Source: Sulfuricella sp. (lineage in GTDB: Bacteria; Pseudomonadota; Gammaproteobacteria; Burkholderiales; Sulfuricellaceae). From it: 64,000 bases of DNA. Both the position numbers and the translations under genes were made by a program. Shown piece by piece: positions 9,601-45,863 of the stretch. How positions within the stretch are numbered: position 1 is the first letter of the stretch; every line of letters begins with the position of its first letter. Under the pieces are notes generated by a model. That model was not told the DNA's origin and ran no database searches. It saw nothing but the letters and a program-made list of their open reading frames with translations. The stretch spans positions 1 through 64,000 of the forward strand of contig JAHFRP010000002.1 in NCBI GenBank assembly GCA_023266195.1, written 5' to 3'.

Positions 9601-9625
9601 TTTTGGTTCTCCTGGTGGTTTAAGA

Positions 9626-10812: not shown

Positions 10813-11208
10813 ATATATATAGACTCCATAAAATTGGTGATTGCGTTTGCCTAGTATCTTAGGCGGCCGCTATCATGTCAAATATCGTTCAGCGTCAACG
10901 TGTTAAAAATCGATAGTATTTAATCAGGTTTTGTGATTACGGGGATTTTTCGGCATCCTAAGAAATCGCTGATCGCTAGTATCCGCGCGGCTTGTAGCTG
11001 GATCGAAAATATTTTTACGGTGACATTAAATAATTTTCGGTAGCGGGGTGTTGCGCTTCGTTACTGAGATAGCGATATGGGAAATATATTTCATGCCGTC
11101 GGCACATATTGGCAACTGCTGTTCAGTGAGTAATGGCGAGTGTTTCCGGCTGTTTTAAGGTTGCCTGATTGTTGCCGCCATGGGAAATATGTTGCGCTAA
11201 AATAACTG
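10813..11208. other. AT-richer intergenic control region
   Basis: No gene is visible between mobC and the divergent regulator. The region has two copies of CTAGTATC (10851-10858 and 10975-10982), the small inverted repeat GCCTA-GTATCT-TAGGC, a CATCCTA motif near 10951 reminiscent of nic regions, and two copies of ATGGGAAATAT (11077-11087, 11180-11190). It is a candidate for mobCA promoters and possibly part of oriT, but nothing here is decisive. Confidence 0.4.
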
Positions 11209-11257
11209 TTGTCATTTTTGGTGACAGTCACTATAATTAAATTATTGTGACGGTCAC
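11209..11257 (+). promoter_or_regulatory. Sigma-70 promoter with two palindromic operators
   Basis: TTGTCA (11209-11214) and TATAAT (11232-11237) are separated by 17 bp, close to ideal. GTGACAGTCAC (11221-11231) lies between them and GTGACGGTCAC (11247-11257) just downstream. A third copy, GTGACTGTCAC, is at 11538-11548 across the stop of the gene this promoter drives. The placement would let a bound regulator block the polymerase, so autoregulation by the adjacent gene product is likely. Confidence 0.75.
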
Positions 11258-11271
11258 TTGAAAGGAATGAA

Positions 11272-11541
11272 ATGAAGCAGGCAGAAGACAAGCGTACTTA
11301 TGAGTTGATCCCGACTCGTCGGGGTCGTGGTCGGCCGGCAACCGGCGAAGCTCGGACGCCGGCGGAACGGAAAAGGGATCAGCGGGAACGGGATCGGGAG
11401 TTGATTTTCGGTGCGAACACCGACGAGGCGCGGCTGACCGAGACCGGTTTGATTGAGGCGATCGGTTTGCCGGCGAAATTCTCGGAACTCTCAAAAGCGG
11501 CTTGGCTTGAACTCGGTCGGCGGCGTGGGTGGTTGCCGTGA
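11272..11541 (+). CDS. Probable plasmid-type transcription regulator
   Basis: 89 residues, strongly basic in the first half (PTRRGRGRPATGEARTPAER with an AT-hook-like RGRGRPA) and ending LSKAAWLELGRRRGWLP. It is preceded by AAGGAATGAA and by a strong promoter with palindromic operators. Small proteins with this layout occur in control regions of mobilizable plasmids. I do not recognise a named family; DNA binding is inferred from composition and from the operators flanking the gene on both sides. Confidence 0.6.
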   Translation: MKQAEDKRTYELIPTRRGRGRPATGEARTPAERKRDQRERDRELIFGANTDEARLTETGLIEAIGLPAKFSELSKAAWLELGRRRGWLP

Positions 11542-11571
11542 CTGTCACGTTTATTTAGCCGGTCGGTCTCG

Positions 11572-11627
11572 TTGTCGTGTGCGACAACGATTGATCTGTT
11601 TCGATTCCCGGTTGTCGCTGGCGACAA
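11572..11627. promoter_or_regulatory. Pair of TTGTCG-N4-CGACAA palindromes
   Basis: Two 16-bp palindromes, 11572-11587 with spacer TGTG and 11612-11627 with spacer CTGG, have centres 40 bp apart, close to four helical turns. Identical half sites and matched spacing suggest cooperative binding by a dimeric regulator or relaxosome protein. They can also form cruciform hairpins. Confidence 0.65.
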
Positions 11628-11726
11628 TCCGGGGATCGGATCGATCACCCCGTCGCCAGGTTCACCGGCGCCGGATCCTGGGCGCAGCCCGGAACCCAAT
11701 AACTGAGCCGAAGGCGATGGCAACCT

Positions 11727-11770
11727 GCTCCCCGCTTGCGGGAGCCTACACTTGCTATCTACCTTCCTGA
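11727..11770 (+). other. Candidate oriT (hairpin plus nic-like sequence)
   Basis: A hairpin GCTCCCCGC-TT-GCGGGAGC with one bulged C (11727-11745) is followed by CCTACACTTGCTATC and then CTTCCTGA. In IncP-type origins a CCCGC/GCGGG hairpin is followed by CCTACTTCACCTATCCTG with the nick after the last G. Order and wording are similar, and the element encodes a MOBP relaxase. The exact nick site is not certain, since CTATCTACC does not match the consensus end. Confidence 0.45.
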
Positions 11771-11877
11771 TTCCTTACGTTTTGCGCGCATCGTCTGTCC
11801 TTTCCTTCCGAAACCCGCATGGATCAGGTCTTTTCGGTCTGTCCTTAGTACCGGTAACACTGTTTGTTTTGCGGACC

Positions 11878-12235
11878 GGACACACCGGGTGGACACACCG
11901 GGACACACCGGGACACATCGGCGGTGGACACACCGGGCCGTCACGGCACGGTGAACCCCGACTGGCCCCACAGGCCAGGCGGCTGACCGAACGGCGAGCG
12001 CGTAGCGCCAGTGAGGTTGGGGTTGCGGTGGACACACCGGGCCGTCACGGCACGGTGAACCCCGACTGGCCCCACAGGCCAGGCGGCTGACCGAACGGCG
12101 AGCGCGTAGCGCCAGTGAGGTTGGGGTTGCGGTGGACACACCGGGCCGTCACGGCACGGTGAACCCCGACTGGCCCCACAGGCCAGGCGGCTGACCGAAC
12201 GGCGAGCGCGTAGCGCCAGTGAGGTTGGGGTTGCG
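11878..12235. repeat. Iteron-like repeats and three 104-bp direct repeats
   Basis: GGACACACCGGG occurs at 11878, 11891, 11901, in a variant at 11911, and at 11926. The last of these begins the first of three 104-bp units at 11924-12027, 12028-12131 and 12132-12235, which look identical. Each unit also holds the small inverted repeat CTGGCC-CCACA-GGCCAG and a GGCG...CGCC stem. No spacers separate the units, so this is not a CRISPR array. The array ends six bases before the stop of the coupling protein gene. A partition, origin or transfer site is plausible. Confidence 0.9.
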
Positions 12236-12241
12236 GACAAA

Positions 12242-14743: not shown

Positions 14744-14755
14744 TGTATTTTCTCC

Positions 14756-15574
14756 TCACCACAGATTTTTTCTGGCGTTGCTGACGGTCAGTTCCGCGTA
14801 TCGGCGGGCCTCTGCTACCGTTTTACGTTTATCGCGGGCGACGGCGCGATCGGTGATTTTGTTGATAATCGATTCGTCCTGTTCGCCGCGGCGCAGCGAA
14901 TGACATGCAAACGCAAACTCACGCTCGGACTCTGAGCCGCCACCGCAACCCAGAGAGACCACACCCCCCCCTTGGGGGGAAGAGGGAACCCCCACAGCGG
15001 GGGATGAGTGTTGCTTTACCCCTCCGGCCAGCAGATGCGCTGGGTCGAACCGCCGCGCGCGGCTGGTTGAGTCATTGATGAAATCGGTCCAGCAGTCACG
15101 GCCCGGTTTTTTATTGCGAAACCCTGGCAACCGTCCCCATTTATCGCCAGCAGTACTGGCGGGGTCGGCGTTGCCGGCCAGCAGGGTGACCAGTTGGGAC
15201 TGCACGGCAAACCGCTCGGGAGTGGTCAGCGACCGGTCAGCGAGCAGGCGGATCTGGCAATTGCGGGGACTGGTCTCGACGATGAGGGCGGCATATTTTC
15301 CGGCGATCCCATGCGCAATAGCCGTCGGGACATCGTCAAGAAACAGCCAGGGGTGCGGCTCTCGTGGCGATGGGCGGATGTAGATGTTTGCGTTTTTCTG
15401 TGCATTCTGCCACCTCGCCCAGCTCATCAATTTTGTGTAATCAGTGGGCAGTGGACGCGGAAACATGGGGTTCTCATCCGGTCGCCCGATATTTTTAATA
15501 ACACCGAGATCTAGTTCGCCGCAGTTTTTCAGTAGAGCATCAATCATCGCAATAGCTTGAGTTTCGGGTCTCAT
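14756..15574 (-). CDS. RepB-type plasmid primase
   Basis: 272 residues resembling the RepB primase family of IncQ-like plasmids: NIYIRPSPREPHPWLFLDDV, then CQIRLLADRSLTTPERFAVQ, and GDKWGRLPGFRNKKPGRDCW, which contains the conserved GxxRxPGFxNxK block. A Gly/Pro/Ser linker at about 195-220 is encoded by a run of C and G that is repeated in inverse upstream of the gene. The C-terminal 50 residues form a helical domain (RRGEQDESIINKITDRAVAR). Family knowledge: such primases start synthesis at specific single-strand sites. It follows repC on the minus strand. Confidence 0.8.
   Translation of the reverse strand: MRPETQAIAMIDALLKNCGELDLGVIKNIGRPDENPMFPRPLPTDYTKLMSWARWQNAQKNANIYIRPSPREPHPWLFLDDVPTAIAHGIAGKYAALIVETSPRNCQIRLLADRSLTTPERFAVQSQLVTLLAGNADPASTAGDKWGRLPGFRNKKPGRDCWTDFINDSTSRARRFDPAHLLAGGVKQHSSPAVGVPSSPQGGGVVSLGCGGGSESEREFAFACHSLRRGEQDESIINKITDRAVARDKRKTVAEARRYAELTVSNARKNLW
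14956..14985. repeat. C/G-run inverted repeat, copy inside the primase gene
   Basis: This 30-base stretch, AGACCACA then eight C, TT, six G and AAGAGG, is the inverted partner of 15581-15612. In the primase frame it encodes the Ser-Pro-Gln-Gly-Gly-Gly linker. The arms enclose most of the primase coding sequence including its start codon. Confidence 0.8.
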
Positions 15575-15580
15575 GGTTTT

Positions 15581-15612
15581 CCTCTTCCCCCCAAGGGGGG
15601 GGGGTGTGGTCT
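15581..15612. repeat. C/G-run inverted repeat, copy upstream of the primase gene
   Basis: The inverse of 14956-14985 with ten instead of eight bases in the long run. It lies just before the primase ATG at 15574 and includes part of its translation start region (AGAGGAAAACC on the minus strand). Slippage in these runs could alter spacing. Confidence 0.8.
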
Positions 15613-15698
15613 TTATTGGGTTTCGGTCGGCAGGACCGCGCCACAGCGCGGGACCTGACCGCTACATCTGTAGGATCTGATATATCTGATCCGCCCAG

Positions 15699-15781
15699 GT
15701 CATTGCTGCACGCTCCGGGTCAATGCTGCACGCGATCGGGTCATTGCTGCACGCGATCGGGTCAATGCTGCACGCTCTACC
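15699..15781. repeat. Four iterons, candidate oriV
   Basis: GTCAWTGCTGCACGC is repeated four times starting at 15699, 15719, 15740 and 15761, a period of 20-21 bp, alternating CATT and CAAT. Twenty to 22-bp iterons bound by RepC are the core of IncQ-type origins. Here they form the 3' end of the repC-like gene itself, encoding the repeated RAALTRS/RAAMTRS tail. An AT-rich stretch (GATATATCTGAT) is next to them. Confidence 0.8.
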
Positions 15782-16521
15782 CGGTTAACCCGGTCGCCGT
15801 CGATCTCTATGCCGATCTCGGCCAGCGCGTCAGCGTCAGCCCGTAGCTCGTGGCGGCGGTGCCGTAGGTTTGTGTCACTGAGATCCCCGGCAACCGCCTT
15901 AACCAACACATCTAGCCTCCAGCCGCCAGGCGGCGACCTGTGCGTGAGCGCGTGCCGGGCGACGGCCTGGCTGATGCCGTGCTGCAACCGTGCGATCGCA
16001 CTAGGATCGCGATGCACATGGAAATCGCGCTCCATTAGCTCTATGAGCCCGCGCCCCAACACAACACGCCACATTTTTCGTTCGCCGCCCAGCGGGTTCG
16101 GGCGCGTTATCAGCTCGCCGCCAGCTGTGCGGGCCTCGACAACCTCATCTATCAAATGACCATGTGCAGTAAACTCGCGCGGCTTCGTTACCGTGATTTT
16201 CACGTAGACACGCATCAGATCACGCAACAAATCCGCCATTTGTCTTCCGCCTGTGATCCCAGCGACTCTCCGCACGCGAGCCGGATCGACCAGCAATTTG
16301 ATTCGTCCATCAACCTCTCCCCATTTTTCGGAGCAGAACATGATTGCCTCCATCATATCGGCGTGCGTTTGCCCGATTTTCCCCTCGACCACCACGCGGC
16401 CGAATTGCGTTTCGGACTCCTGCCTGATTTCGACCGGCCGGCGAGTCGGTTGGTACAGCCGGATTCGATGCTGCGACAGCGTCGTTGTCGGCACCACATT
16501 TTTTTTAGAAGTCAGCGTCAT
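15700..16521 (-). CDS. repC: RepC-type replication initiator
   Basis: 273 residues. The sequence RVVVEGKIGQTHADMMEAIM, then LRDLMRVYVKITVTKPREFT and KMWRVVLGRGLIELMERDFH, reads as the winged-helix initiator fold of IncQ RepC/TrfA-like proteins that bind iterons. The last 25 residues are a repeated ALTRSRA pattern because the gene's 3' end is made of the iterons. It starts 17 bases inside the end of the upstream helicase gene, giving a repA-repC overlap as in IncQ operons. The call rests on fold pattern, partners and iterons together. Confidence 0.8.
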   Translation of the reverse strand: MTLTSKKNVVPTTTLSQHRIRLYQPTRRPVEIRQESETQFGRVVVEGKIGQTHADMMEAIMFCSEKWGEVDGRIKLLVDPARVRRVAGITGGRQMADLLRDLMRVYVKITVTKPREFTAHGHLIDEVVEARTAGGELITRPNPLGGERKMWRVVLGRGLIELMERDFHVHRDPSAIARLQHGISQAVARHALTHRSPPGGWRLDVLVKAVAGDLSDTNLRHRRHELRADADALAEIGIEIDGDRVNRVERAALTRSRAAMTRSRAALTRSVQQ

Positions 16522-17416
16522 TCGGCGGCACCCCCTTCACTTCCTTCTTCGCGCCCGACCAGCCGCTGCTGACCTTGAACATTTCCTCAAACCTCAGCAG
16601 TCCGCCCGGCAATTTGTGCAGCCAGCGCGCTGCCGTCGGCGGTGCATAGTTCGCTTTGACCTGCGCAACCCGGATCCAAAACCCAGCCAAATCCGGATCG
16701 ATCTTGTAATCCTCCTTATCTTTTTTCCTCGGCGGTGTGAGGTTTACCTGCCACCGAACCGCAGTCGTCAGGCTCGACGCACCGCGAGCTGCAGCCCAGT
16801 TGTCGCCGTCCTCACTGGCGCCCGCCTTGGAAAAATGGTGTAGCAGGATAATGGTGCAGCCGGTGATCCGGCAGATTTCCTGACACACGATCATCAGCAT
16901 GGTCATCGCTCCATTGTCGATTTCATCTGCGTCATGCAAAAACGCTAGCGGGTCGAGAAGAGCCAGACGATAACCGGCGGCATGAGCCAGCAGCCCCTCG
17001 AAAAACGGACCACGGACCAGGCCGGAATTGGTTTTTGTCAGCAGGCGCAGATCGAAACCCGCGCCGGTGCGAATGTCAGCCAGGTCATCAAATGCCTCGA
17101 TTTCGATCGGCGACATAGTCTGTTTTAGCAACCAGAGCCGGTTTTCTAGGATCTGAACCGGATCCTCCCCGGCGATCACCAGCACCCGCCCGCGAGCGGG
17201 GGCCGGCCACAGGCCGCCAGCCACCGGAACGCCGCATGCGATGGCCTGGGCGATATGTAGAGCCAGGAACGATTTTCCAACCGCGCCGGTGCCGCAAATC
17301 ATGCCGACAGTGCCTGCCAGCAGGCCAGGCAGGACGAAATCGAGAGTAGGCGGGGCGGTGAGTGCCCCCATGGTGACGCGAGGGAAATCGAGCGACGGAA
17401 TAGATTGCTGATTCAT
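16505..17416 (-). CDS. repA: RepA-type replicative helicase
   Basis: 303 residues of the RecA/DnaB-like hexameric helicase class used by IncQ plasmids. Walker A is ICGTGAVGKSFLALHIAQ near residue 40, an acidic strand GRVLVIAGEDP follows near 80, Walker B-like YRLALLDPLAFLHDADE near 140, and GCTIILLHHFSKAG near 185 is the DnaB-like H motif with Gln/His replaced by His-His. Length is close to RSF1010 RepA. It starts four bases before the end of the AlpA-like gene and overlaps repC, so the three are one operon. Confidence 0.88.
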   Translation of the reverse strand: MNQQSIPSLDFPRVTMGALTAPPTLDFVLPGLLAGTVGMICGTGAVGKSFLALHIAQAIACGVPVAGGLWPAPARGRVLVIAGEDPVQILENRLWLLKQTMSPIEIEAFDDLADIRTGAGFDLRLLTKTNSGLVRGPFFEGLLAHAAGYRLALLDPLAFLHDADEIDNGAMTMLMIVCQEICRITGCTIILLHHFSKAGASEDGDNWAAARGASSLTTAVRWQVNLTPPRKKDKEDYKIDPDLAGFWIRVAQVKANYAPPTAARWLHKLPGGLLRFEEMFKVSSGWSGAKKEVKGVPPNDADF

Positions 17417-17796
17417 TTCGCACCCCCGTTACGACGAGCGCGCAATTCCGCGACCGTGGTCCGCATTTTTTCGGCGGTCGTTTTTTCCTCGTTCGTATAC
17501 CGTCCGGCGCGGGCACGGCCGGTGGTCGTGGGGGCTGGTGCCGGAACCGGCGCCGGGAGCGTTTCTTTTTTTCGGTAAGTGCGTTGGTCGTTAAGCCAGT
17601 CCAGAAGGTCGGCGAGCACCCACAAAACGCGGCGACCGCGAGCAGCCGGCTCAGGGAACCCTTTCAAGAGCGGGCTCAGAGTCTGACGGTAAACGTGGCG
17701 TCTAAGAATCGAATACGACACGCCAGAAACGGCCGTCGCTATATCCCAGGTGACACGAGAGAGGGGGTGCAGTGCAGAAATAGATGGCGAGTTCAC
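17413..17796 (-). CDS. AlpA-like helix-turn-helix protein
   Basis: A GTG at 17796 preceded by AGGAG eight bases upstream gives 127 residues; the longer frame to 17994 lacks such a signal. The sequence VTWDIATAVSGVSYSILRRH followed by VYRQTLSPLLKG and ...RRVLWVLADLLDWLNDQ is a winged HTH of the AlpA/excisionase type; the tail is Lys/Arg-rich. It is the first gene of the repA-repC operon. The gene at 1442-1801 holds the same place in the relic element. Function as replication or excision regulator is inferred. Confidence 0.6.
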   Translation of the reverse strand: MNSPSISALHPLSRVTWDIATAVSGVSYSILRRHVYRQTLSPLLKGFPEPAARGRRVLWVLADLLDWLNDQRTYRKKETLPAPVPAPAPTTTGRARAGRYTNEEKTTAEKMRTTVAELRARRNGGAK

Positions 17797-18199
17797 GCGC
17801 AAATCTCCTAAAAACAGAGTTTGCTGCGCGCGATCCCGCCGTGAGGGACTCGAAACGCTGCCGGCGCAGATTCCGGCTAGCGTGATGCAGTTTAGGGACC
17901 CTACGCCGCAGGCGGCTCGGGTTTCGCCTTCACCGCCTGTTTTACCCCCATGATTCGCGGGTTTGGGGCAGGCGGTGCAAACTGCACCTGGCACTGTGCC
18001 CCGGCTCGTTGCCGGCGGCGTTCGTCAATGCCAAATTAAGTATGTCCTGATCGTAGCCAAATTGTCAAACGTTTTTTTTGGGCACAAAACGGTCGCATAC
18101 AAAAGGGGCACAGTGCGGGCACAAAACGGGCACAAAACGGTCACACTCGGGCACAGTAATTGTGCCCAATAGCTGTTTTCTGTAGGTATAGCAGGAAAT
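17797..18199. other. Right end of the element, arm-site-like repeats
   Basis: No gene is visible. GC-rich DNA with several small inverted repeats (17860-18010) gives way to a cluster of GGGCACAAAACG-type motifs between 18078 and 18160: GGGCACAAAACGGTC, GGGGCACAGTGC, GGGCACAAAACGGG, GCACAAAACGGTCACAC and GGGCACAG. The same GGGCACAAAACGGTCAC stands at 2479-2495 by the integrase, so these are probably integrase or excisionase arm sites. Confidence 0.6.
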
Positions 18200-18226
18200 A
18201 AAAAACCGCCTAAGTGGCGGTTTTTA
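18200..18226 (-). terminator. tRNA-His terminator
   Basis: AAAAACCGCC (18201-18210) and GGCGGTTTTT (18216-18225) pair around TAAGT. On the minus strand the stem ends in a T run just beyond the tRNA-His 3' end. The near copy at 2322-2346 shows it is included in the homology of the element ends, so integration restores both tRNA and terminator. Confidence 0.85.
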
Positions 18227-18233
18227 TTGAGAA

Positions 18234-18286
18234 TTTTTGGGGTGGCTGATGGGGCTCGAACCCACGACAACCGGAATCACAATCCG
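18234..18286. repeat. Right attachment site within tRNA-His
   Basis: This 53-base stretch is identical to 2355-2407 and covers the 3' half of the intact tRNA-His. Left of it is element DNA; right of it the tRNA 5' half and the chromosome continue. The crossover must lie within this block. Confidence 0.9.
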
Positions 18287-30075: not shown

Positions 30076-30792
30076 TTAACGCAACAAAGTCAGCACCGTA
30101 TTCGGCGTTTGGTTCGCTTGTGCCAGTACCGCCGTACCCGCTTGTTGCAGGATGTTGTTGCGGGTCATGCTTGCAGTTTCCGCCGCATAGTCGGTGTCCA
30201 TGATGCGGCTATACGAAGCGGACAGGTTCACCGAAGCAACCTGCATGGAGGCGACGGCGGATGCAAAAGTCGCCATGTCCGCACCGAACTTGGCACGAGA
30301 GGTCGCCACGGCGGCGATATCCGCATCGATGCCGCTAACCGTAGAGCCGGTGGCGACGGCTACCGCGGTGCCGGCGCCGGTAACCGTGCCCCCGTTCGAG
30401 TTGATCACCACGGAACCGGTGGCGGATGTCAGCCCGGCGATGCGCGAGTTTTCCGCGACAAGTGCAGTGGTTTCCGCGCCGGTAGCCGTACCGCCCAGTT
30501 GCACCGCGATTTCGCGCAGGCGCTGCAGGTTCTCGGTGATTTGGGCCGCATAGCCGTCGTTCGTCTGCGCAGTCGAAATGCCGTTATTGGCGCTGCGAAT
30601 TGCCATGTTCGTGCCGCGAATCTGGCTGTCATAGCCGGTAGCGGTGACCAGGCCGGTGGCATCATCCTTGGCACTGTTGATGCGCAGGCCGGAGGAGAGG
30701 CGCTCCTGGGCGGTTTGCAGGGCGAGAGACGATTTGTTCAGGGCGGCGCCGGCGAACAGGGAGGCAACGTTGGTGTTGATGACTTGTGCCAT
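30076..30792 (-). CDS. fliC: Flagellin, short form
   Basis: The start MAQVINTNVASLFAGAALNK at 30792 follows GGAGAAT; the frame is open further upstream but lacks that signal. The 238-residue protein has the conserved D0/D1 N-terminus (LSSGLRINSAKDDATGLVTA) and C-terminus (SRIMDTDYAAETASMTRNNI, ending NTVLTLLR). The middle, Ala/Thr/Gly-rich, is only about 60 residues, so the outer D2/D3 domains are nearly absent. Expected to be exported and polymerised into the filament. A sigma-28 promoter lies about 105 bp upstream. Confidence 0.92.
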   Translation of the reverse strand: MAQVINTNVASLFAGAALNKSSLALQTAQERLSSGLRINSAKDDATGLVTATGYDSQIRGTNMAIRSANNGISTAQTNDGYAAQITENLQRLREIAVQLGGTATGAETTALVAENSRIAGLTSATGSVVINSNGGTVTGAGTAVAVATGSTVSGIDADIAAVATSRAKFGADMATFASAVASMQVASVNLSASYSRIMDTDYAAETASMTRNNILQQAGTAVLAQANQTPNTVLTLLR

Positions 30793-30895
30793 GGTGATTC
30801 TCCTTTGATTACGGGTTGCGATAAATATGGCTTTCGGAGCCATCAACCTCGGTTCGCCTTTGGTGTCGTGAGGCACTAAACCGCTGTTAAGCTAT

Positions 30896-36329: not shown

Positions 36330-37130
36330 TCAGTCGATGAAAGCAGGCTTCGGCGGCGACCCGGCGGATACGGTCAATACTTCGTAGCCCGTTTCAGTGA
36401 CCAGAACGGTATGCTCCCATTGCGCCGACAGGCTGTGATCCTTGGTGACGATGGACCAGCCGTCGCCGAGTTGGCGGATGTCGCGCTTGCCGGCGTTGAT
36501 CATCGGCTCCACCGTGAAAATCATGCCCGGAGCCAGTTCGACGCCGGTTCCCGCCTTGCCGTAGTGCAGTACCTGCGGCTCTTCGTGGAATTCCCGGCCG
36601 ATGCCGTGGCCGCAGAACTCGCGCACCACGCTGTAGCCGCGCGCCTCGGCGTGCTTCTGGATGATCTGCCCGACGTCGCCCAAATGGGCGCCCGGCTTGA
36701 TCGCCGCGATGCCGAGCCACATGCACTCGAACGTCGTTTCGCACAAGCGCCTGGCCTGGATGGACGGTTCGCCTACGTAGTACATTCGGCTGGAATCCCC
36801 GTGGAAGCCATCCTTGATGGTGGTGACATCGATATTGACGATGTCGCCGTTCTTGAGCTTTTTTTCGCTCGGCACACCGTGGCAAACCTGGTGGTTGACC
36901 GAAGTGCAGATCGATTTCGGGTAGGGGCGATGGCCCGAAGGCGCATAATTCAGCGGAGCGGGGATCGCATCCTGCACGTTCACGGTATAGTCGTGGCAGA
37001 GTTTGTCCAGCTCGTCGGTGCTGATGCCCGCTTTGACATAAGGCCCGATATAATCGAGCAATTCGGCCGCCAGCCGGCCGGCGACGCGCATTTTTTCGAT
37101 TTCTTCCGGGGTCTTGATTATGATGGACAT
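36330..37130 (-). CDS. map: Methionine aminopeptidase, type I
   Basis: 266 residues. Metal ligands are visible: the two Asp in GDIVNIDVTTIKDGFHGDSS, His in GHGIGREFHEEP, Glu in FTVEPMIN and the last Glu in QWEHTVLVTETGYEVL. It removes the initiator Met from new proteins. In many betaproteobacteria map is divergent from rpsB; here an eight-gene-sized operon separates them. Confidence 0.96.
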   Translation of the reverse strand: MSIIIKTPEEIEKMRVAGRLAAELLDYIGPYVKAGISTDELDKLCHDYTVNVQDAIPAPLNYAPSGHRPYPKSICTSVNHQVCHGVPSEKKLKNGDIVNIDVTTIKDGFHGDSSRMYYVGEPSIQARRLCETTFECMWLGIAAIKPGAHLGDVGQIIQKHAEARGYSVVREFCGHGIGREFHEEPQVLHYGKAGTGVELAPGMIFTVEPMINAGKRDIRQLGDGWSIVTKDHSLSAQWEHTVLVTETGYEVLTVSAGSPPKPAFID

Positions 37131-37260
37131 GATGAATTTGATCGGATTAAATAGCGCGTCAGTATATCAACAATTGGGTTGCATACCTTCATGCTGACTA
37201 GGGTAGGCCACGCATCGAAAGAAAACGGGAGTTTCATCCCCGTTTCCGGGATTTGACATT

Positions 37261-39642
37261 ATGAAACATAGCGGACGTAACCAGCCTTGCCCATGCGGGA
37301 GCGGGAAGAAGCACAAACAGTGCTGCTTGCAGCTGGAAAGTGAGCAGCCTGCGAGCCGCGGTCCAACGGATAGGGAAATTGCCGATGCCGTGCAGGTTGC
37401 CATCGGGCACCATCAAGCCGGACGACTGATCGAGGCGGAAGCCGTTTGTCAGCAAATCCTTCAGGTGGCCCCCAGCCATCCGGACCCTTGGCACCTTATG
37501 GGAGTGATGGCTTATCAAATAGGCATGCATGATGTCGCCGTCGAACTGATCGGCAAGGCTCTGGAGTTGGTGCCGAATTTTGCCGATGCGCACAATAACC
37601 TGGGTAACGCGCTCAAGGAACAAGGCGAGCTGGCGGAAGCCGTCGCCAGCTACCGGAAAGCCGTCTCGCTCAAGCCGGATCATGCCGAGGCACACTATAA
37701 CCTGGGCAATGCGCTCAAGGAGCAAGGGAAGTTGGCCGGGGCGGTCGCCAGCTACGAAAAAGCCATTTCGCTCAAGCCGGACTATGCCAGGGCACACAAT
37801 AACCTGGGGGATGCGTTCCAAGCGCAGGGTAAGCTGGAAGAGGCGCGCGCCAGCTATGACCGAGCCCTCGGAATCGACCCTGATTTGGCGGAGGTCCACA
37901 ACAATCTGGGCACCCTGTTCAAGGATCAAGGCAAGCCGGAAGCCGCGGTCGAGAGCTGCCAAAAAGCCATTTCACTCAAGCCGGACTTTGCCGATGCGCA
38001 TCATAATCTGGGGAATGCGTTCAAGAGCCTGGGCCGCCTGGATGAAGCAGTCGTCTGCTACCAACGGGCACTATCGATCAAGCCGGATTATGCCGAAGCA
38101 TTTTGTGATTTGGGGCTAGCACTCCAGGCCCAAGGCTGGCTGGAGGGAGCGGCCGCCTGCTACCGGCAGGCACTGTCGATCAAGCCGGATTTGGTCGAGG
38201 CGCACTGTAATCTGGGTGGGGCGCTCCTGGGTCAAGGCCGGCAGGAAGAGGCGGCCGTCTGTTGCAGGCAGGCTCTTCTGATGGAGCCGAATTACGCCGG
38301 GGCGTACAATAATTTGGGGGGCGCTCTCCTGGCTCAAGGCGAGTTGGAAGAAGCGGCCGCCAGCTACCGGCAGGCACTTTCGATCAGGCCGGATTATGCG
38401 TCGGCCTACAGCAATTTGATCTTCACCCTCGACATGATGGTTGGGGCGGACACGCCAACCCTCCAGGCCGAGCGCAAGCGCTGGAGCGAAGCTTGCGCGG
38501 CAGCCCTAAGCGGCGACCTGTCGTTTCCCAATGTTCCGGACCCGGAGCGCCGCCTGCGCATAGGTTATGTTTCCGCCGATTTCAGGATACATTCCGCGGC
38601 TTTCGTATTCGGGGCAATGCTGGTCAAGTTCGATCCCTCGTCATTTGAGGTATTCGCCTATTCCAATTCAGCCATTGAGGTCTCGCATACCCACCTATTC
38701 CAGCGAAGCGTAACCTGCTGGAGGAAGATCGTCGGCTTGTCGGACGCAGCCGTTGCCGATCTGATCCGGCAAGACGAGATCGACATCCTGGTCGACCTGT
38801 CTGGGCACTCCGCCGGCAATCGATTGCTGGTGTTCGCCAGAAAGCCGGCGCCCATCCAGATTACGGCCTGGGGGTATATCGGGGGGACCGGGATGAAGGC
38901 CATGGATGTGTTTCTGGCCGATCCGGTCGTGGTGCCGCCGGAAGAGAAGCAATATTATGCGGAGGAAGTGCGCTATTTGCCCAACGTGGTCGGCGCGTTT
39001 TTTCCCGACACTTTTCCCGCGGTCAATGCGTTGCCGGCGTTGTCGGCGCAAGGGGTGACTTTCGGTTCGTTCAACCGGTTGGCCAAAGCGTCGGATGAAG
39101 CCTTCAAGGCGTGGGCGCGGGTATTGTTGGCCACCCCCGGCAGCAGAATGGTGCTCAAAACCGTCGAACTGGATGATGCCGGCACGAGAGATCAGGTCGC
39201 CGCGCGTTTCATCGAAGCCGGGGTCGATCCCGAACGCATCACCTTGCTGGGGAAAACATCCTGGCACGATCACATGGCGGCCTTTAACCAGATCGATATC
39301 GCCCTTGATCCGTTTCCGCACGGGGGCGGAGTGACGGCGCTGGAAGGTTTGATGATGGGCATCCCGGTGGTCACGCTGCGCTGGCCGACATTGGTTGGAA
39401 GATTGTCGGCTTCGATTCTGACGACATTGGGTCTCACCGACTGGATTGCCGAGACGCCGGAGCAATATGTTGAATTAGCCGTGCGGAAGGCGCAGGATAT
39501 CGCTGCACTGGCCGCGCTGCGCGGCCAGATGCGGGAGATTTTTACCACCTCGGTCATCGGTGATCAGCAAGCCTATGTCCGGGCGGTAGAGCAGGAATAC
39601 CGGCAGCTTTGGCGGGAATACGTACAATCGAAAGGTAAGTAA
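37261..39642 (+). CDS. TPR protein with O-GlcNAc transferase-like (GT41) domain
   Basis: 793 residues. An N-terminal SEC-C zinc motif (RNQPCPCGSGKKHKQCC, residues 6-22), then about ten tetratricopeptide repeats (roughly 45-390) with the consensus AHNNLGNALKEQGELAEAVA, then a GT41 catalytic region: RIGYVSADFRIHSAAFVF, DLSGHSAGNRLLVFARKPAP, DPFPHGGGVTALEGLMMGIP. Bacterial relatives glycosylate proteins on Ser/Thr. No membrane segment. It leads a tightly packed operon with radical SAM and glycosyltransferase genes, so its target may be made or modified there. Flagellin is one candidate, given the flagellar genes nearby. Confidence 0.88.
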   Translation: MKHSGRNQPCPCGSGKKHKQCCLQLESEQPASRGPTDREIADAVQVAIGHHQAGRLIEAEAVCQQILQVAPSHPDPWHLMGVMAYQIGMHDVAVELIGKALELVPNFADAHNNLGNALKEQGELAEAVASYRKAVSLKPDHAEAHYNLGNALKEQGKLAGAVASYEKAISLKPDYARAHNNLGDAFQAQGKLEEARASYDRALGIDPDLAEVHNNLGTLFKDQGKPEAAVESCQKAISLKPDFADAHHNLGNAFKSLGRLDEAVVCYQRALSIKPDYAEAFCDLGLALQAQGWLEGAAACYRQALSIKPDLVEAHCNLGGALLGQGRQEEAAVCCRQALLMEPNYAGAYNNLGGALLAQGELEEAAASYRQALSIRPDYASAYSNLIFTLDMMVGADTPTLQAERKRWSEACAAALSGDLSFPNVPDPERRLRIGYVSADFRIHSAAFVFGAMLVKFDPSSFEVFAYSNSAIEVSHTHLFQRSVTCWRKIVGLSDAAVADLIRQDEIDILVDLSGHSAGNRLLVFARKPAPIQITAWGYIGGTGMKAMDVFLADPVVVPPEEKQYYAEEVRYLPNVVGAFFPDTFPAVNALPALSAQGVTFGSFNRLAKASDEAFKAWARVLLATPGSRMVLKTVELDDAGTRDQVAARFIEAGVDPERITLLGKTSWHDHMAAFNQIDIALDPFPHGGGVTALEGLMMGIPVVTLRWPTLVGRLSASILTTLGLTDWIAETPEQYVELAVRKAQDIAALAALRGQMREIFTTSVIGDQQAYVRAVEQEYRQLWREYVQSKGK

Positions 39643-39645
39643 CAT

Positions 39646-40812
39646 ATGGCGTTGCCCCTCTTACAGTTACCGGGTACGTTAAATTATATAGGCCTCTTTC
39701 TGACTCTTGAGTGCAATCTCAATTGCAGCTATTGCATCAACGATCCGGAACAAATGGGACGGAGGAGCGCGCTTTTTCCGATTGAAAGCAAATCGGCGCG
39801 GAAGAGCCTGACCCCCGCAGAATGGGTTGCCGCACTGCAACGCATCCCTTTTCGGCAAGATTTGCCGGTTACCTTGCAAGGGGGCGAACCGATGCTCTAT
39901 TGGGGCGGCAAAGGACTGGGCTTGATTCTGCCCGATGTTCCGCACTATTTCGACTTGCTGACCAATTTCGCGTTGAAGCCGGATGTTTTTGCCCGCAACC
40001 TCAATGGACAGCAAGCCAAATTTCAACGCAGTGCTCCTTATCCGTCGATCCGTGTCAGTTATCACGCCGATGAGATGAATCGCGCCTGGAAGGATCGCGG
40101 TTTCGAGGAACTGGTCGAGCGTTGTGAAGCGCTCAAGGACTATGGTTTCAGGGTGTCTCCCAACAAGGCGGAAAGCGATGTCGGCATCTATATGGTGGAG
40201 CATCCGAAAAATGCCGTGACGCCTGAGATGAAGGCCATTTACGAAGGGCGCGTGCCGTTCGAAGGCAAGGAGTTTCTCGGCGTCGACGAAGGGGAGTTGT
40301 ACGGCCACTATCTTTACCCATTCTCTACCGACTTGATTAGCCGGGGCATACACCCCGCCACTTTAAATTGCGAATGCCGGACGACCGAACTGTTGCTCGA
40401 CCCGATGGGTTTCGTCTGGGGATGCCATTATTTCCTCTATGAAGGCTGGAGTCACGGCGGCCCGCAGAAAGAATTCGCGGCGTTGGAGGCGAAAAAGTTC
40501 CGATTTGCCGAACACGGCGCGAGCCTTTTCGCCGGCCATTCCGTCGCCCCAGTCGGACATTTGCTCGACCCCGAATTCAGCATGGCCGATCTCGATCTCT
40601 ATCGGCCGTGCAGCCACTACGGCCGGTGTATCGGCTGCGACACCAAGATCAAGAACGACCGTTTTCAGAGCTATTACGACCGCGGCGTGCCGCATACCTC
40701 GGTCAATATCCGGAATATTGAAATGCCTTCGCATCTTTATGGGAAAATCGACAATCTCGAACGGGCGCGGCAGTTTTTCAAGCCCGATGTCGTGGACCGA
40801 GAGAACCAATGA
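39646..40812 (+). CDS. Radical SAM protein
   Basis: 388 residues. The [4Fe-4S] motif is C23-x3-C27-x2-C30 in LECNLNCSYCIND, near the N-terminus, followed by TLQGGEPMLYWGGKGLG, the glycine-rich SAM-binding strand. The C-terminal half has further Cys groups (LNCECRTTELLLDPMG, GCHYFLYEG, CSHYGRCIGCD), probably for an auxiliary cluster as in SPASM-type enzymes. No substrate family is recognised. The start follows the TPR gene after three bases (the ATG of CATATGG), and the stop overlaps the next gene. Confidence 0.85.
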   Translation: MALPLLQLPGTLNYIGLFLTLECNLNCSYCINDPEQMGRRSALFPIESKSARKSLTPAEWVAALQRIPFRQDLPVTLQGGEPMLYWGGKGLGLILPDVPHYFDLLTNFALKPDVFARNLNGQQAKFQRSAPYPSIRVSYHADEMNRAWKDRGFEELVERCEALKDYGFRVSPNKAESDVGIYMVEHPKNAVTPEMKAIYEGRVPFEGKEFLGVDEGELYGHYLYPFSTDLISRGIHPATLNCECRTTELLLDPMGFVWGCHYFLYEGWSHGGPQKEFAALEAKKFRFAEHGASLFAGHSVAPVGHLLDPEFSMADLDLYRPCSHYGRCIGCDTKIKNDRFQSYYDRGVPHTSVNIRNIEMPSHLYGKIDNLERARQFFKPDVVDRENQ

Positions 40813-41777
40813 GCCGCACTGAGCCCTTGAAAGCAGACAGCCGCAAGCGCGTTCTCATTATCAAGCCGGGATACAGCGAAACGCTGGACCCGGACGATAG
40901 CGGCATTGTCAGCCTCGGAGACATTTTGCGAACAACGGTGATCCTGCATCTGTTTCCGCCCGAGCAGTACCACGTGACGTGGCTGGTGGATCAGAAAGGT
41001 ATTTCGCTCTTGAAAGGGAATCCCTTTATCCACCGGCTGCTGGTGGTCAATCCGTTCACGCCCCACCTGCTGCTTTCCGAGTGGTTCGACATTGTCATCA
41101 ACTTCGAGAAGGAAGCCGGTATCTGCGCGGTGTCCGACCGCATTCCGGCTTGGCGGCGCTATGGTTTCAGGCTCGATCCGCAAACGCACATGGCAGTATC
41201 TTACGACCATGCCGATGAAGCGCTGAGTTTCACCACCGACCCCGAAGCAAAGCGCCACAAGGCGAAATCCTGGTCGGAGATTCTTTACGAGATGCTGGGG
41301 TACCGCTACCAGGGCCAGCCGTACGTTCTGGGCTACCAGCCGCGCTCCGGGGTCGTCCATGATGTTGGACTCAACCATCTGATAGGCGCCAAGTTTCCGC
41401 TCAAGCGCTGGCCGGAGAGCCATTGGCAGGCCTTGCACGCCGATCTGTCGCGGGACTTCGGAGTGTGCTGGCAGCAGGGCACCAACGACATCGAAGACTA
41501 CATCGAGTGGATTGCCGGTTGCCGGCTGCTGGTTACCAATGATTCGCTGGGCCTGCACATCGCGCTGGGCCTTGGCAAGCCCGTGGTGGCATTGTTCGGC
41601 CCGACCATTTCCAGCGAGGTGGACGGCCCGGGTTTGATCCGCATTACGCCGCCGTTGCCCTGGGAATGCATTCCTTGCATGAAGTCCTCCTGCATTCAGG
41701 ATACGCCGTGCATGCAACATATTTCACCCGGTTTGGTGGGCGATTCGGTCCGCAAAGCATTGGGGGATGCAGGATGA
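40809..41777 (+). CDS. Glycosyltransferase family 9 protein
   Basis: 322 residues of the heptosyltransferase type: RVLIIKPGYSETLDPDDSGI and SLGDILRTTVILHLFPPEQY at the start, the acceptor-site-like SNIL region replaced by FPLKRWPESHWQALHADLSR, and VTNDSLGLHIALGLGKPVVA near 250. The C-terminus has a four-Cys cluster (WECIPCMKSSCIQDTPCM). Such enzymes transfer heptose or related sugars from ADP- or other nucleotides. The ATG overlaps the preceding stop by four bases; its own stop overlaps the next ATG. Confidence 0.85.
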   Translation: MSRTEPLKADSRKRVLIIKPGYSETLDPDDSGIVSLGDILRTTVILHLFPPEQYHVTWLVDQKGISLLKGNPFIHRLLVVNPFTPHLLLSEWFDIVINFEKEAGICAVSDRIPAWRRYGFRLDPQTHMAVSYDHADEALSFTTDPEAKRHKAKSWSEILYEMLGYRYQGQPYVLGYQPRSGVVHDVGLNHLIGAKFPLKRWPESHWQALHADLSRDFGVCWQQGTNDIEDYIEWIAGCRLLVTNDSLGLHIALGLGKPVVALFGPTISSEVDGPGLIRITPPLPWECIPCMKSSCIQDTPCMQHISPGLVGDSVRKALGDAG

Positions 41778-42724
41778 CGACCTTCTCGCTCTTTCGCAGC
41801 ATGCTGCGCATCCGCCGTATCGAAGAGGCGATCGCGGAGCGTTACGGCGCGCAGGAGATGCGCTGCCCCGTTCACCTTTCCATCGGCCAGGAGGCCGTAG
41901 CCGTTGGCGTGTGTGCGGCGCTGCAACCGCAGGACGGCGTGTTCGGCGGCCACCGCGCCCACGCCCACTATCTTGCCAAAGGCGGCGATCTGACCGCCAT
42001 GCTGGCGGAAATTTACGGGTTGGAGAATGGTTGCTGCCGCGGAGTCGGCGGCTCCATGCACATCATCGACCTCGCCGCCGGTTTTCTCGGCGCCGTGCCT
42101 ATCGTCGGCGCCACGATCCCGCTTGCGGTTGGCGCTGCGTGGGCTGCGAAACTACGCAACGAGGACAAGGTGATCGTTGTCTTTTTCGGCGACGGCACCT
42201 TCGAGGAAGGCGTCGTGCATGAATCAATCAATTTTGCCGTCCTGCACAGGTTGCCTGTCCTGTTCGTTTGCGAGAACAACCTTTACGCCTGCTATACCCG
42301 CCTTTCCGAGCGGCAGCCGGATCGCCCCATTCACGCAATCGCCGCCGCCCATGGCTGCCGGATATTCACCGCCGAAGGCGACGACGTGGAGGCGGTGCAT
42401 GCGGCATCCCGCATGGCCGTGGCCGATTTGCGCGCGGGCGGCGCCCCGGTTTTCCTCGAATGTTCCACCTATCGCTGGCGGGAGCATTGCGGCCCGAACC
42501 AGGACGATCACCTGGGTTATCGGCCAAGCGGAGAACTGGCGAAATGGGAATCGACCTGCCCGGTAAGCCGCCTTGCGTCGACACTTTCCTCAAGCCCGGA
42601 GGGCGCGCGCCTTGTCGCTGCGGCGGAGGCCGAGATCGCCGGGGAAATCGCGTCCGCCTTCGCCGCCGCGCTTGCCAGCCCGGTACCGCAGCCAGCAGAT
42701 CTTCCAGGGTATCTGTATGCCTGA
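41774..42724 (+). CDS. Thiamine-diphosphate dehydrogenase E1, alpha-type subunit
   Basis: 316 residues. The start at 41774 overlaps the previous stop. VHLSIGQEAVAVGVCAALQP, FGGHRAHAHYLAKGGDLTAM and GGSMHIIDLAAGFLGAVPIV are E1-alpha blocks; the ThDP motif is FFGDGTFEEGVVHESINFA and FVCENNLYACYT. The phosphorylation loops of mitochondrial types are absent. With the next gene it forms an alpha2beta2 enzyme. No E2 or E3 gene is near, so the reaction may be non-oxidative decarboxylation or carboligation of a keto acid. Confidence 0.9.
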   Translation: MTTFSLFRSMLRIRRIEEAIAERYGAQEMRCPVHLSIGQEAVAVGVCAALQPQDGVFGGHRAHAHYLAKGGDLTAMLAEIYGLENGCCRGVGGSMHIIDLAAGFLGAVPIVGATIPLAVGAAWAAKLRNEDKVIVVFFGDGTFEEGVVHESINFAVLHRLPVLFVCENNLYACYTRLSERQPDRPIHAIAAAHGCRIFTAEGDDVEAVHAASRMAVADLRAGGAPVFLECSTYRWREHCGPNQDDHLGYRPSGELAKWESTCPVSRLASTLSSSPEGARLVAAAEAEIAGEIASAFAAALASPVPQPADLPGYLYA

Positions 42725-43790
42725 AATCGAGCGCCGGATCACCCAGGCCGAAGCGATTCGCGAGGCGCTCGCCCAGGCCATGGAGGAAGACGAACGCGTT
42801 ATCGTTATCGGCGAGGGCGTACCCGATCCCAAGGGGATTTTTGGGACGACCACCGGCTTGCAGCAACGGTTCGGCAAGGCGAGGGTGTTCGACAGCCCGT
42901 TGTCGGAAAACGGGATAACCGGGATTTGCGTGGGCGCCGCCATCTCCGGCATGCGACCGGTGATGGTGCACCAGCGCATCGATTTTGCGCTGCTGGCAAT
43001 GGACCAGATCGTCAATAACGCTGCCAAGTGGCACTATATGTTTGCCGGCCAGGTCAAAGTGCCGCTTGTCATCCGCGTCATCATCGGGCGCGGCTGGGGC
43101 CCTGGTCCACAGCACGCGCAGAGCTTGCAGGCTCTTTTCGCGCATATTCCCGGTCTCAAGGTGGTGATGCCGACCAGCGGTTACGATGCCAAGGGGATGC
43201 TGCTTGCGGCCATCCGCGACGACAACCCGGTTATTTTCATCGAACACCGCTGGCTGCAAGACATCGCCGACCACGTTCCGGAGGCGCCCTACATCGTACC
43301 GCTGGACCAGGCGCTGATTTGCCGCCCCGGCCAGCACGTCACCCTGGCCGCCTTCTCCTACATGACAGTCGAGGCACGCCTGGCTGCGGAGGCGTTGGCG
43401 GAGCATGGCATCGAGGTGGAGGTCGTCGATGCCCGTTCCGTACGCCCGCTCGACATGAGCACGATTGTCGAGTCGGTTCGCCGTACCGGCACACTGATCG
43501 TCGCCGACACCGCCTGGAAAACCGGCGGTATTGCCGGCGAGGTTATTGCCGGCGTTGCCGAAACAGCTTTTTCCGCCTTGAAACGGCCGCCCCTGCGCAT
43601 TTGTCTCCCGGATATCCCGGCTCCGACATCGCCGCACCTGACCCGCGGCTATTATCCCGATGCACTATATCTCGCTCGTGCCATCGCCGCTCATCTTGGT
43701 CGTAGCATCCCCGATGCCGAACTTGCCGATAGGCTTTTCCGAACGACTCCGCACGATGTGCCGCAACGTGAATTTCGTGGCCCCTTCTAG
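42717..43790 (+). CDS. Thiamine-diphosphate dehydrogenase E1, beta-type subunit
   Basis: 357 residues. ITQAEAIREALAQAMEEDER, RVFDSPLSENGITGICVGAA (with the catalytic Glu region), GRGWGPGPQHAQSLQALFAH, and the C-terminal LAAEALAEHGIEVEVVDARS are all E1-beta/transketolase-C blocks. It overlaps the alpha gene by eight bases. Family members include pyruvate, acetoin and branched-chain dehydrogenases; here no lipoyl partner is encoded. The last 40 residues are more divergent than in housekeeping enzymes. Confidence 0.9.
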   Translation: MPEIERRITQAEAIREALAQAMEEDERVIVIGEGVPDPKGIFGTTTGLQQRFGKARVFDSPLSENGITGICVGAAISGMRPVMVHQRIDFALLAMDQIVNNAAKWHYMFAGQVKVPLVIRVIIGRGWGPGPQHAQSLQALFAHIPGLKVVMPTSGYDAKGMLLAAIRDDNPVIFIEHRWLQDIADHVPEAPYIVPLDQALICRPGQHVTLAAFSYMTVEARLAAEALAEHGIEVEVVDARSVRPLDMSTIVESVRRTGTLIVADTAWKTGGIAGEVIAGVAETAFSALKRPPLRICLPDIPAPTSPHLTRGYYPDALYLARAIAAHLGRSIPDAELADRLFRTTPHDVPQREFRGPF

Positions 43791-43801
43791 GAACAGAACC
43801 A

Positions 43802-44905
43802 ATGTCAGACCGCTACGCCATCGATAGCCACAAGCTCATTTATCATCCCCAGAGAGTCGCGCAGTTCCTCGATGCCGGTGAAGAGTGGGAAAAGGCCAAA
43901 GCCGTCTACCCGCTTTATGTCGAGATGTCGCCCGTCGGTGCTTGCAACCATCGCTGCACTTTCTGCGCGGTCGATTACATTGGCTACAAACCGACTCGTC
44001 TGTCGCTGGAGGTGGCAGAACGTGCGCTCGCCGAGATGGGGGAAATGGGCGTCAAGAGCGTCATGTTCGCCGGCGAAGGAGAACCCATGCTGCACAAGGA
44101 CATCGACAGCATGGTGGTCGCGGCGGCCAAAGCCGGCATCGATACCGCAATGACGACCAATGCCTCGGTGCTGTCCGAAGCGTTCGTCGAAAGAGCCTTG
44201 CCGGTCATGTCATGGATCAAAGCCTCGGTCAACGCGGGCACAGCCGAAACTTACGCCCGCATTCACCGCACCGGGGAGCGCGACTTTCAGCGTGTGTTGG
44301 CTAATTTAAAAACGCTGGCCGAAGCCCGTCGCCAGCATGGGCATACCTGTACGATCGGCGCACAAATTTTGCTCCTCCCTGAAAATGCCGCTGAAGTTGA
44401 AACGCTTGCCCGCATCTGCCGCGACGAAATCGGGCTCGACTATCTGGTCGTCAAGCCCTATTCCCAACACAGCTTCAGCCTGACCAGGGATTATGAGGGG
44501 ATCGACTACCACAATTTCCGCAATCTGGCAGACGGTCTGAGTGCGCTGAATAGCGACAGCTTCAGCGTCATCTTCCGCGAAAACACCATGAGGAAACACG
44601 ACGATGGCGAAGAGAACCGCTATCGCAAATGCAATGCCACCCCTTTTTTCTGGGCTTACATTATGGCGACCGGCGCACTGTACGGCTGCAGCGCCTATCT
44701 GCTCGACAAACGCTTCGAGTACGGAAACATCAACGAGTCCTCGTTCAAGGAAATATGGGAAGGCGAACGGCGCCGCGAGAATTTCCATTACGTAAGGCAC
44801 GAGCTCGACATCCACGAGTGCCGCCTGAATTGCCGCATGGATGAAGTCAATCGTTACCTGGATCGATTGCTTCGCCGCGACGTCCCGCATATCAACTTCA
44901 TCTGA
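43802..44905 (+). CDS. Radical SAM/SPASM protein
   Basis: 367 residues. Cluster motif C48-x3-C52-x2-C55 in GACNHRCTFCAVD; the SAM-binding VMFAGEGEPMLHKDID follows. The SPASM-like tail holds YRKCNATPFFWAYIMA, GCSAYLLDKRFEYGNINE and HECRLNCRMDEVNRYLD, giving auxiliary-cluster Cys. It starts 11 bases after the E1-beta gene and closes the operon. Substrate unknown; a carbohydrate or peptide modification is likely given the neighbours. Confidence 0.87.
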   Translation: MSDRYAIDSHKLIYHPQRVAQFLDAGEEWEKAKAVYPLYVEMSPVGACNHRCTFCAVDYIGYKPTRLSLEVAERALAEMGEMGVKSVMFAGEGEPMLHKDIDSMVVAAAKAGIDTAMTTNASVLSEAFVERALPVMSWIKASVNAGTAETYARIHRTGERDFQRVLANLKTLAEARRQHGHTCTIGAQILLLPENAAEVETLARICRDEIGLDYLVVKPYSQHSFSLTRDYEGIDYHNFRNLADGLSALNSDSFSVIFRENTMRKHDDGEENRYRKCNATPFFWAYIMATGALYGCSAYLLDKRFEYGNINESSFKEIWEGERRRENFHYVRHELDIHECRLNCRMDEVNRYLDRLLRRDVPHINFI

Positions 44906-44963
44906 CCCGCCCCGTAAGCGAGCATTCCGGTAAGTCGCTATTGACTGGGCCGATTACTCGTTC

Positions 44964-44993
44964 TTGAGAAAATCCCCGCCGGCGTGCTAGAAT
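44964..44993 (+). promoter_or_regulatory. Probable rpsB promoter
   Basis: TTGAGA (44964-44969) and TAGAAT (44988-44993) are separated by 18 bp. It lies 133 bp before the rpsB start, leaving room for a structured leader. Another TTGACT at 44941 has no matching -10. Confidence 0.6.
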
Positions 44994-45125: not shown

Positions 45126-45863
45126 ATGTCAGTGACCATGCGTCAGATGTTGGAAGCGGGCGTCCATTTCGGACACCAAACCCGTTACTGGAACCCCAAA
45201 ATGGCGCCGTTCATCTTCGGCGACCGCAACAAGATTCATATCATCAACCTGGAAAAAACGCTGCCGATGTACCAGGAAGCGATGAAGTTCATGCGCAAGC
45301 TGGCGACCAACAAGGGCAGCATCCTGTTTGTCGGCACCAAGCGTCAGGCGCGTGAAATCGTCAAGGAAGAAGCCGAGCGTGCCGGTTGCCATTTCGTTAA
45401 TTTCCGCTGGCTCGGCGGCATGCTGACCAACTTCAAGACGGTCAAGCAATCGATCAAGCGCCTGCAGGATCTGCAAGTAATGCTGTCGGAAGAGAATGTC
45501 GGCAAGCTGGCCAAGAAGGAAGCGCTGCTTCTGCGCCGCGAACTCGACAAGCTGGAACGCAGCCTGGGCGGCATCAAGGACATGAATGGCCTGCCCGACG
45601 TGATTTTCGTGATCGACGTCGGCCATGAAAAAGGCGCAATTACCGAAGCCAACAAACTGGGTATTCCGGTAGTCGGCGTGGTGGACTCGAACAACTCCCC
45701 GATCGGCGTGAATTACGTCATTCCCGGCAACGACGACTCCACCCAGGCGATCCGCCTGTATGCGCGAGGTGCGGCCGATGCCGTGCTGGAAGGGCGTAAC
45801 GACGTCATCCAGGAAATCGTCGGCGACGAGTTCGTCGAAGTTCCTGAACAGGCCGCGGAATAA
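45126..45863 (+). CDS. rpsB: 30S ribosomal protein S2
   Basis: 245 residues. [40 protein letters not shown] and [20 protein letters not shown] are standard S2 blocks. GGAGCATC precedes the ATG at 45126; the frame's upstream extension is leader RNA. First gene of the rpsB-tsf-pyrH-frr unit. The C-terminus is short and acidic. Confidence 0.98.

Follow-up and report, generated by a model that had tools for sequence, protein, structure and literature searches.

A six-gene cassette between map and rpsB

We analyzed positions 1 to 64,000 of contig JAHFRP010000002.1 from Sulfuricella sp. (GenBank assembly GCA_023266195.1); we will call this whole stretch the window. Between map and rpsB, the window carries six plus-strand genes that are nearly continuous, with successive gaps of +3, -4, -4, -8, and +11 bp (negative values are overlaps). 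These genes, which we will call the cassette, encode a protein with tetratricopeptide repeats (TPR) and a GT41 glycosyltransferase domain, two radical S-adenosylmethionine (SAM) enzymes (rSAM1 and rSAM2), a GT9 glycosyltransferase, and a pair of proteins that resemble the subunits of a thiamine pyrophosphate (TPP)-dependent E1 enzyme.

30076-30876, minus strand: short flagellin, 238 amino acids from its ATG (Flagellin_N and Flagellin_C), the proposed target
36330-37130, minus strand: map, flank of the cassette
37171..44957, no strand: inserted or replaced segment
37261..39642, plus strand: TPR-GT41 (SPINDLY/OGT-like), proposed flagellin O-glycosyltransferase (PF13844, 153.5 bits; structural relatives; His and Lys motifs)
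39646..40812, plus strand: rSAM1, a radical SAM enzyme that has five additional invariant cysteines (Pfam Radical_SAM)
40809..41777, plus strand: GT9 (heptosyltransferase-like) glycosyltransferase (PF01075, Glyco_transf_9)
41774..42724, plus strand: E1 alpha, TPP-binding subunit (PF00676, E1_dh, 203 bits)
42717..43790, plus strand: E1 beta, whose C-terminal extension is conserved (PF02779 and PF02780, Transket_pyr and Transketolase_C)
43802..44905, plus strand: rSAM2, with a DesII-like fold (Pfam Radical_SAM and SPASM)
45126-45863, plus strand: rpsB, flank of the cassette

The starts of E1 alpha (41774) and E1 beta (42717) are refined; the longest frames of both begin further upstream. A preliminary description of this DNA, made from the sequence alone, had reported six genes of these families in near-continuous order, and this was borne out: all six open reading frames are present with the gap sizes given above, and Pfam and NCBIfam agree with the earlier naming. 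A promoter scan found no sigma-70-like promoter upstream of the six genes.

The preliminary description also held that map and rpsB are normally neighbors and that the operon was inserted between them. We searched 12 genomes of the genus and found a strong match to map in 10 of them (the window's own genome G000, G001, and eight others). In all eight others, map and rpsB are 296-878 bp apart, versus 7995 bp in the window. So, the earlier claim stands and the cassette is an insertion. Within the genus, G001 is one further carrier. Homology to most of the empty sites breaks off near 37170 and restarts near 44958. Directly downstream of the restart, at 44964-44993, is a sigma-70-like match which is probably the promoter of rpsB. 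Third-position GC content is 0.65-0.74 in the cassette genes versus 0.75-0.80 in the four flanking genes that we measured. Horizontal acquisition is our best explanation; it forms part of a wider reading (see below) that we think has an even chance of being correct.

At the empty sites, a small gene occupies the replaced stretch (we saw frames in all three sites inspected, L041, L042, and L047). The frame from L042, which is the one that we compared to Pfam, is DsrE. The DsrE-like gene has an apparent signal peptide and is missing where the cassette sits.

Linkage of the core genes across phyla

Leaving aside weak radical SAM matches, which we excluded as generic from the relative, class, and phylum counts, rSAM1 has strong matches in three of 200 relatives (G000, G001, and G014; a tally of four with one weak match) and in 2/369 genomes of the class sample (G000 and G308; a tally of 10 with weak matches). 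Scanning the genome_contigs collection once yielded 16 loci; 11 of these are relatives, with at least 34% identity across most of rSAM1. Strong matches are also found in 8/297 genomes from the phylum of a Geobacteraceae metagenome-assembled genome (MAG) and in 30/285 genomes of Omnitrophota. These counts (38/582) include only matches with E below 1e-45; at E of 0.001, they would be 48/297 and 84/285.

Where rSAM1 occurs, the same partners recur. GT9 and rSAM2 adjoin rSAM1 in 12/12 loci (G001, G014, and ten from the genome_contigs scan), including L020, whose rSAM2 is cut by the contig end. We added 35 further stretches from the strong-match genomes of both phyla. Across the resulting 47 loci, a set that leaves out the window and G001, the partners of rSAM1 are GT9 (37 loci), rSAM2 (30), a complete two-subunit TPP pair (29), and a third radical SAM gene, rSAM3 (14). 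The TPP genes are E1 alpha in 22 loci and E1 beta in 22 (21 as a pair, by a manual reading of the listing) or the N and C parts of a split transketolase (9 and 8 loci). All 94 strong matches to GT9, rSAM2, E1 beta, or transketolase N are on the same strand as rSAM1, and GT9 lies under 200 bp from rSAM1 in 26 of 36 cases. In contrast, 315,660 bases of control sequence had no strong match to rSAM1, GT9, rSAM2, or E1; the sole strong match in the control was the transketolase N of G201, which is located in G201's own island. Some of the loci in which rSAM1 lacks partners are contigs of just 3-9 kb. A full core with E1 is present in Propionivibrio soli SG131 (L015), whose genome also gives a strong match to NeuB.

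Thus, a survey of co-occurrence, which the preliminary description had put forward as a check, found recurrent linkage in Pseudomonadota, the phylum of the Geobacteraceae MAG, and Omnitrophota. We set aside the alternative that each gene belongs to a separate known pathway, as this co-occurrence speaks against it. Of the idea of a single operon, the linkage stands, but the unity does not: GT41 can pair with fliC where the cassette is missing, and the core (rSAM1, GT9, the TPP pair, and rSAM2) occurs without GT41 or E1. Two other statistics say less. Mirror-tree correlations (Spearman 0.41-0.85) cannot tell co-inheritance apart from a common history of the species, and a crude proximity product of about 4e-14 is for seven positive genomes only, without G001 and with preliminary distances.

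We also noticed that in L017 (6324-6488), only the last 55 residues of rSAM2 are left, adjoining an rSAM3 gene; from this remnant, rSAM2 may be replaceable. In G001 (L007, 11899-13425), a reversed gene for a B12-binding radical SAM protein (by Pfam) lies between two GT41 copies. Frames that we read by eye as B12-radical-SAM, without a Pfam test, cluster in 22 of 49 core loci.

Enzyme families of the cassette

E1 alpha and beta retain the residues that we take to be for TPP binding and the active site, including the GDG...NN motif in the alignment of E1 alpha to the human pyruvate dehydrogenase (PDH) E1 alpha. The nearest protein to E1 beta in PDB is PDH E1 beta, and the C-terminal tail of E1 beta is conserved in 7 sequences. 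There are no E2 or E3 genes beside E1 in the window's cassette, and the cassette copy is the sole strong match to E1 beta in the window's genome.

The TPP enzyme varies across loci. E1 alpha and beta are not beside the core in L012, L014, or L016, and searches of the whole genomes of G201, G203, and G205 found no cassette-type E1 beta. (G205 does have a 321-bit E1-beta match, which adjoins a frame that by eye is E2-like, so we read it as an ordinary E1.) The cassette island of G201 has a split transketolase pair, another radical SAM gene, and some frames whose products we read as sugar-tailoring; in the stretches fetched from G203 and G205 (L127, L174, and L175), we saw no transketolase. Transketolase pairs also adjoin the core in L019 and L021 (by Pfam). 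We considered that E1 and transketolase might be strict alternatives, but G207 (L019) has both pairs, and L153 has an E1 pair as well as transketolase N. Both kinds of enzyme can transfer two-carbon units. Split transketolases and carboligation by E1 are subjects of PMC7661550 and PMC7696235, respectively.

Pairs that resemble PDH E1 alpha/beta are found in other sugar gene clusters: AviB1/AviB2 and Pau11/Pau12 were proposed to extend a keto sugar by a two-carbon unit drawn from pyruvate, according to PMC4425429 and PMC4753412. Similarly, in the window an E1-like pair stands with GT9 and GT41, and at other loci with GT9. Unlike the cassette, those clusters are for Streptomyces antibiotics, and the likeness shown is one of gene context. 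For two-carbon branching in Gram-negative bacteria, PMC4753412 names a single TPP-dependent flavoprotein, YerE.

rSAM2 is nearest to DesII (dTDP-4-amino-4,6-dideoxyglucose ammonia-lyase), by both sequence and solved fold, and shares its overall fold. However, identity is just 16-20%, and rSAM2 scores far below the DesII equivalog model TIGR04426 (51.8 vs. 450 bits). rSAM1 has no Pfam SPASM match, but its five extra cysteines are invariant in a 46-sequence alignment, and an auxiliary cluster is likely from this pattern. The fold ranking for rSAM1 is mixed: Foldseek puts viperin on top, with low TM-scores, while VIA-align puts DesII on top. We set aside the idea of an anti-phage viperin, as the matches to the pVip profiles are weak and cover the core domain only.

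The cassette's GT9 has the C-terminal donor-site region of the GT9 heptosyltransferases (WaaF/RfaF), and its nearest proteins in PDB are 3tov and heptosyltransferase II. Nevertheless, its score is under the NCBIfam cut-off for heptosyltransferase II (47.8 vs. 134.6). Four C-terminal cysteines are conserved in GT9.

The TPR-GT41 protein has an N-terminal SEC-C motif, TPR, and a C-terminal Glyco_transf_41 domain whose score (153.5 bits) far exceeds the Pfam cut-off of 25. The nearest solved relatives of this domain are SPINDLY and 5djs (which we take to be the Thermobaculum OGT). The motifs GYVSADFRxH and FGSFNRLxK are retained, with their presumably catalytic His and Lys. The HTT loop, which we take to be the donor site of OGT, is replaced by GGVT in the window; SPINDLY itself lacks HTT. 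Among 19 GT41 frames, 10 had no match to this motif, and 8/9 of those with a match are of the GGV/GGM type, while L015 keeps HTT. PF13844 also matches in the Caulobacter control genome. In G205, we found 53 matches to the GT41 profile across several contigs, with one open reading frame of 4629 amino acids that has several GT41 domains.

Flagellin and the possible role of the cassette

The preliminary description had suggested flagellin, encoded 6 kb away, as a target for modification. The measured distance from the flagellin gene to the first cassette gene is 6384 bp, and flagellin proved to be a recurrent neighbor of the cassette in other genomes. (FliD is also in the window, by Pfam, as are flaG-, fliS-, and fliT-like frames, by eye.) The Flagellin_N profile matched in 11 of the 13 cassette genomes that we searched. 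Reading frames of about 400-460 amino acids with weaker Flagellin_N scores as FlgL leaves a true flagellin in 10/13, with none in G001, G208, or G209. Flagellin is on the same contig as the cassette in seven of these ten genomes, at distances of 1.6, 3.6, 6.4, 14.6, 15.5, 24.7, and 33.3 kb; in the other three (G202, G205, and G206), the cassette's contig is too short to tell (14.7-23.5 kb). In G203, the cassette is 1.6 kb from fliC, and in G014, the cassette and GT41-like genes lie between two fliC genes. Six cassette genomes have GT41 next to fliC or close by (G014, G200, G201, G204, G205, and G206). The flagellins of the window and of cassette-bearing G201 (a Gallionellales MAG) share 78% identity, and the flagellins of three congeners best match another type, which suggests a flagellin exchange.

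We propose that the cassette is a horizontally acquired, two-part add-on for flagellin glycosylation, although this could equally well prove wrong: we infer the sugar, its donor, and its target, as well as all of the chemistry. The first part (rSAM1, GT9, E1 alpha/beta, and rSAM2) would make and hand on an unusual sugar. The DesII-like SPASM enzyme rSAM2 might turn a sugar, either activated or bound in a glycan, into a keto form. The E1 pair, without E2 or E3, would decarboxylate pyruvate or another 2-oxo acid and add a two-carbon unit to the sugar's ketone, as was proposed for AviB1/AviB2, to give a two-carbon-branched sugar; rSAM1 might perform a further radical step, and GT9 would transfer the sugar. 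The second part, TPR-GT41, would bind flagellin in the cytosol and O-glycosylate its Ser/Thr residues before export. GT41 could attach either the sugar from the first part or a first sugar that GT9 extends. The most likely role of the cassette is glycosylation of flagellin with a sugar tailored by radical and TPP chemistry, with both the product and the target still unproven.

Several observations weigh against this proposal. L135, L139, and L148 have rSAM1 but none of its partners over 16-17 kb of sequence. Two Omnitrophota genomes that we searched have the core without GT41 and without flagellin. GT41 and fliC can occur as a pair without the core, as in the cassette-less congeners G003 and G005 (fliC was seen in 3/5 fetched congeners, two of them with GT41 beside it). 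And the nearness of flagellin in the window proves little by itself, because the flagellar locus adjoins glnD and map in the three congeners with fliC; it is the other genomes that carry the argument.

So we also considered that the core's sugar is destined for a cell-surface polysaccharide or lipopolysaccharide (LPS), and that GT41 is an unrelated flagellin glycosyltransferase on the same transcript. This would explain why both Omnitrophota genomes have the core without flagellin and GT41, and why GT41 is found paired with fliC in genomes that lack the core. LPS is the usual substrate of GT9 families, and frames that we read as GT2 or as B12-radical-SAM (without a Pfam test) are each found in 22/49 core loci. 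We think this explanation is rather doubtful, given that flagellin is on the cassette's contig in most of the flagellin-bearing genomes, and given the arrangements in G014 and G203. Another idea is that the substrate of the radical SAM enzymes is a peptide instead of a sugar, either in the manner of a ribosomally synthesized and post-translationally modified peptide or with flagellin itself being modified. Most SPASM enzymes mature peptides, the scores of SuiB and SkfB for rSAM2 are close to that of DesII, and the best match to rSAM1's sequence in PDB is 8vpo (TigE), over residues 4-89 only. But the recurrence of GT9 and TPP enzymes with rSAM1 speaks against a peptide product, the sugar enzymes DesII and BlsE lead the sequence ranking for rSAM2, and we noticed no precursor gene among frames of at least 90 amino acids, so we consider peptide modification unlikely. 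At least as improbable is that E1 alpha/beta forms an acyl or aldehyde unit for acylation (of an amino sugar, for instance), or that it is a catabolic enzyme for 2-oxo acids that became trapped in the operon. Some cassettes lack E1, and the top NCBIfam models for the pair are PDH E1, but both subunits miss the PDH cut-offs (279.7 vs. 393.85 for alpha and 307.5 vs. 321 for beta), E1 beta accompanies rSAM1 in 22/47 loci, and the window's cassette offers no E2 or E3.

Known flagellin glycans include nonulosonic acids (NulO; FlmG and Maf systems), O-GlcNAc, and modified viosamine. As with FlmG of Caulobacter, the cassette's glycosyltransferase gene is linked to flagellin, and the two proteins share the Pfam family PF13844, which is the extent of their demonstrated kinship. 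FlmG requires pseudaminic acid made by NeuB, as described in PMC7591256. The window's genome differs in that it has no strong NeuB, just a weak match to the NeuB profile (2e-11; the E. coli control matches this profile as well), and has the radical SAM/TPP module instead. The FlmG/pseudaminic acid route is therefore unlikely in this genome, and we set aside ordinary NulO/Maf glycosylation of flagellin on the same grounds. Across 12 cassette genomes, four have a strong NeuB and eight do not. Of 13 genomes, G204 alone matched PF01973 (MptE-like), which we take to be the Maf domain; no bacterial control matched, which makes this a weak test. GT41 genes are also found in the flagellin glycosylation islands of Enterobacteriaceae (in 14/42 island types, according to PMC4875605). 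Unlike the content of the cassette, the main text of PMC4875605 does not include the words radical, pyruvate dehydrogenase, transketolase, or heptosyltransferase. Among titles and abstract openings of the open-access papers that we searched, we found no description of this system.

If our proposal is correct, then a transferable radical SAM/TPP module provides new donor chemistry for flagellin glycans, and a C2-branching pair of the E1 type is added to the glycans of Gram-negative bacteria. We speculate, tentatively and with more doubt than belief, that Pseudomonadota, relatives of Geobacteraceae, and Omnitrophota have an undescribed sugar pathway in common. Its SPASM-type radical enzymes, together with a TPP enzyme of two subunits (E1 or a split transketolase), would form a sugar that is extended or has a two-carbon branch. 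In hosts with flagella, this pathway would be joined to a GT41 for the cytosolic decoration of flagellin, replacing nonulosonic acids where NeuB is missing. This would also give a testable pathway for Omnitrophota glycans, and P. soli SG131, with its core and E1, could make the pathway testable.

Two other features lie outside the cassette. In G001 (L049, G001:C1:56000-75999), a long CRISPR-like repeat array and cas-like frames follow a fliK-like frame (by eye); the array stands where the window has fliC-flaG-fliD-fliS. And at 2355-18286, the window has an integrative element, flanked by a 53-bp direct repeat of the 3' part of tRNA-His (2355-2407 and 18234-18286); the two copies enclose integrase, TrwB/TraD-like, and RepB-primase-like genes.

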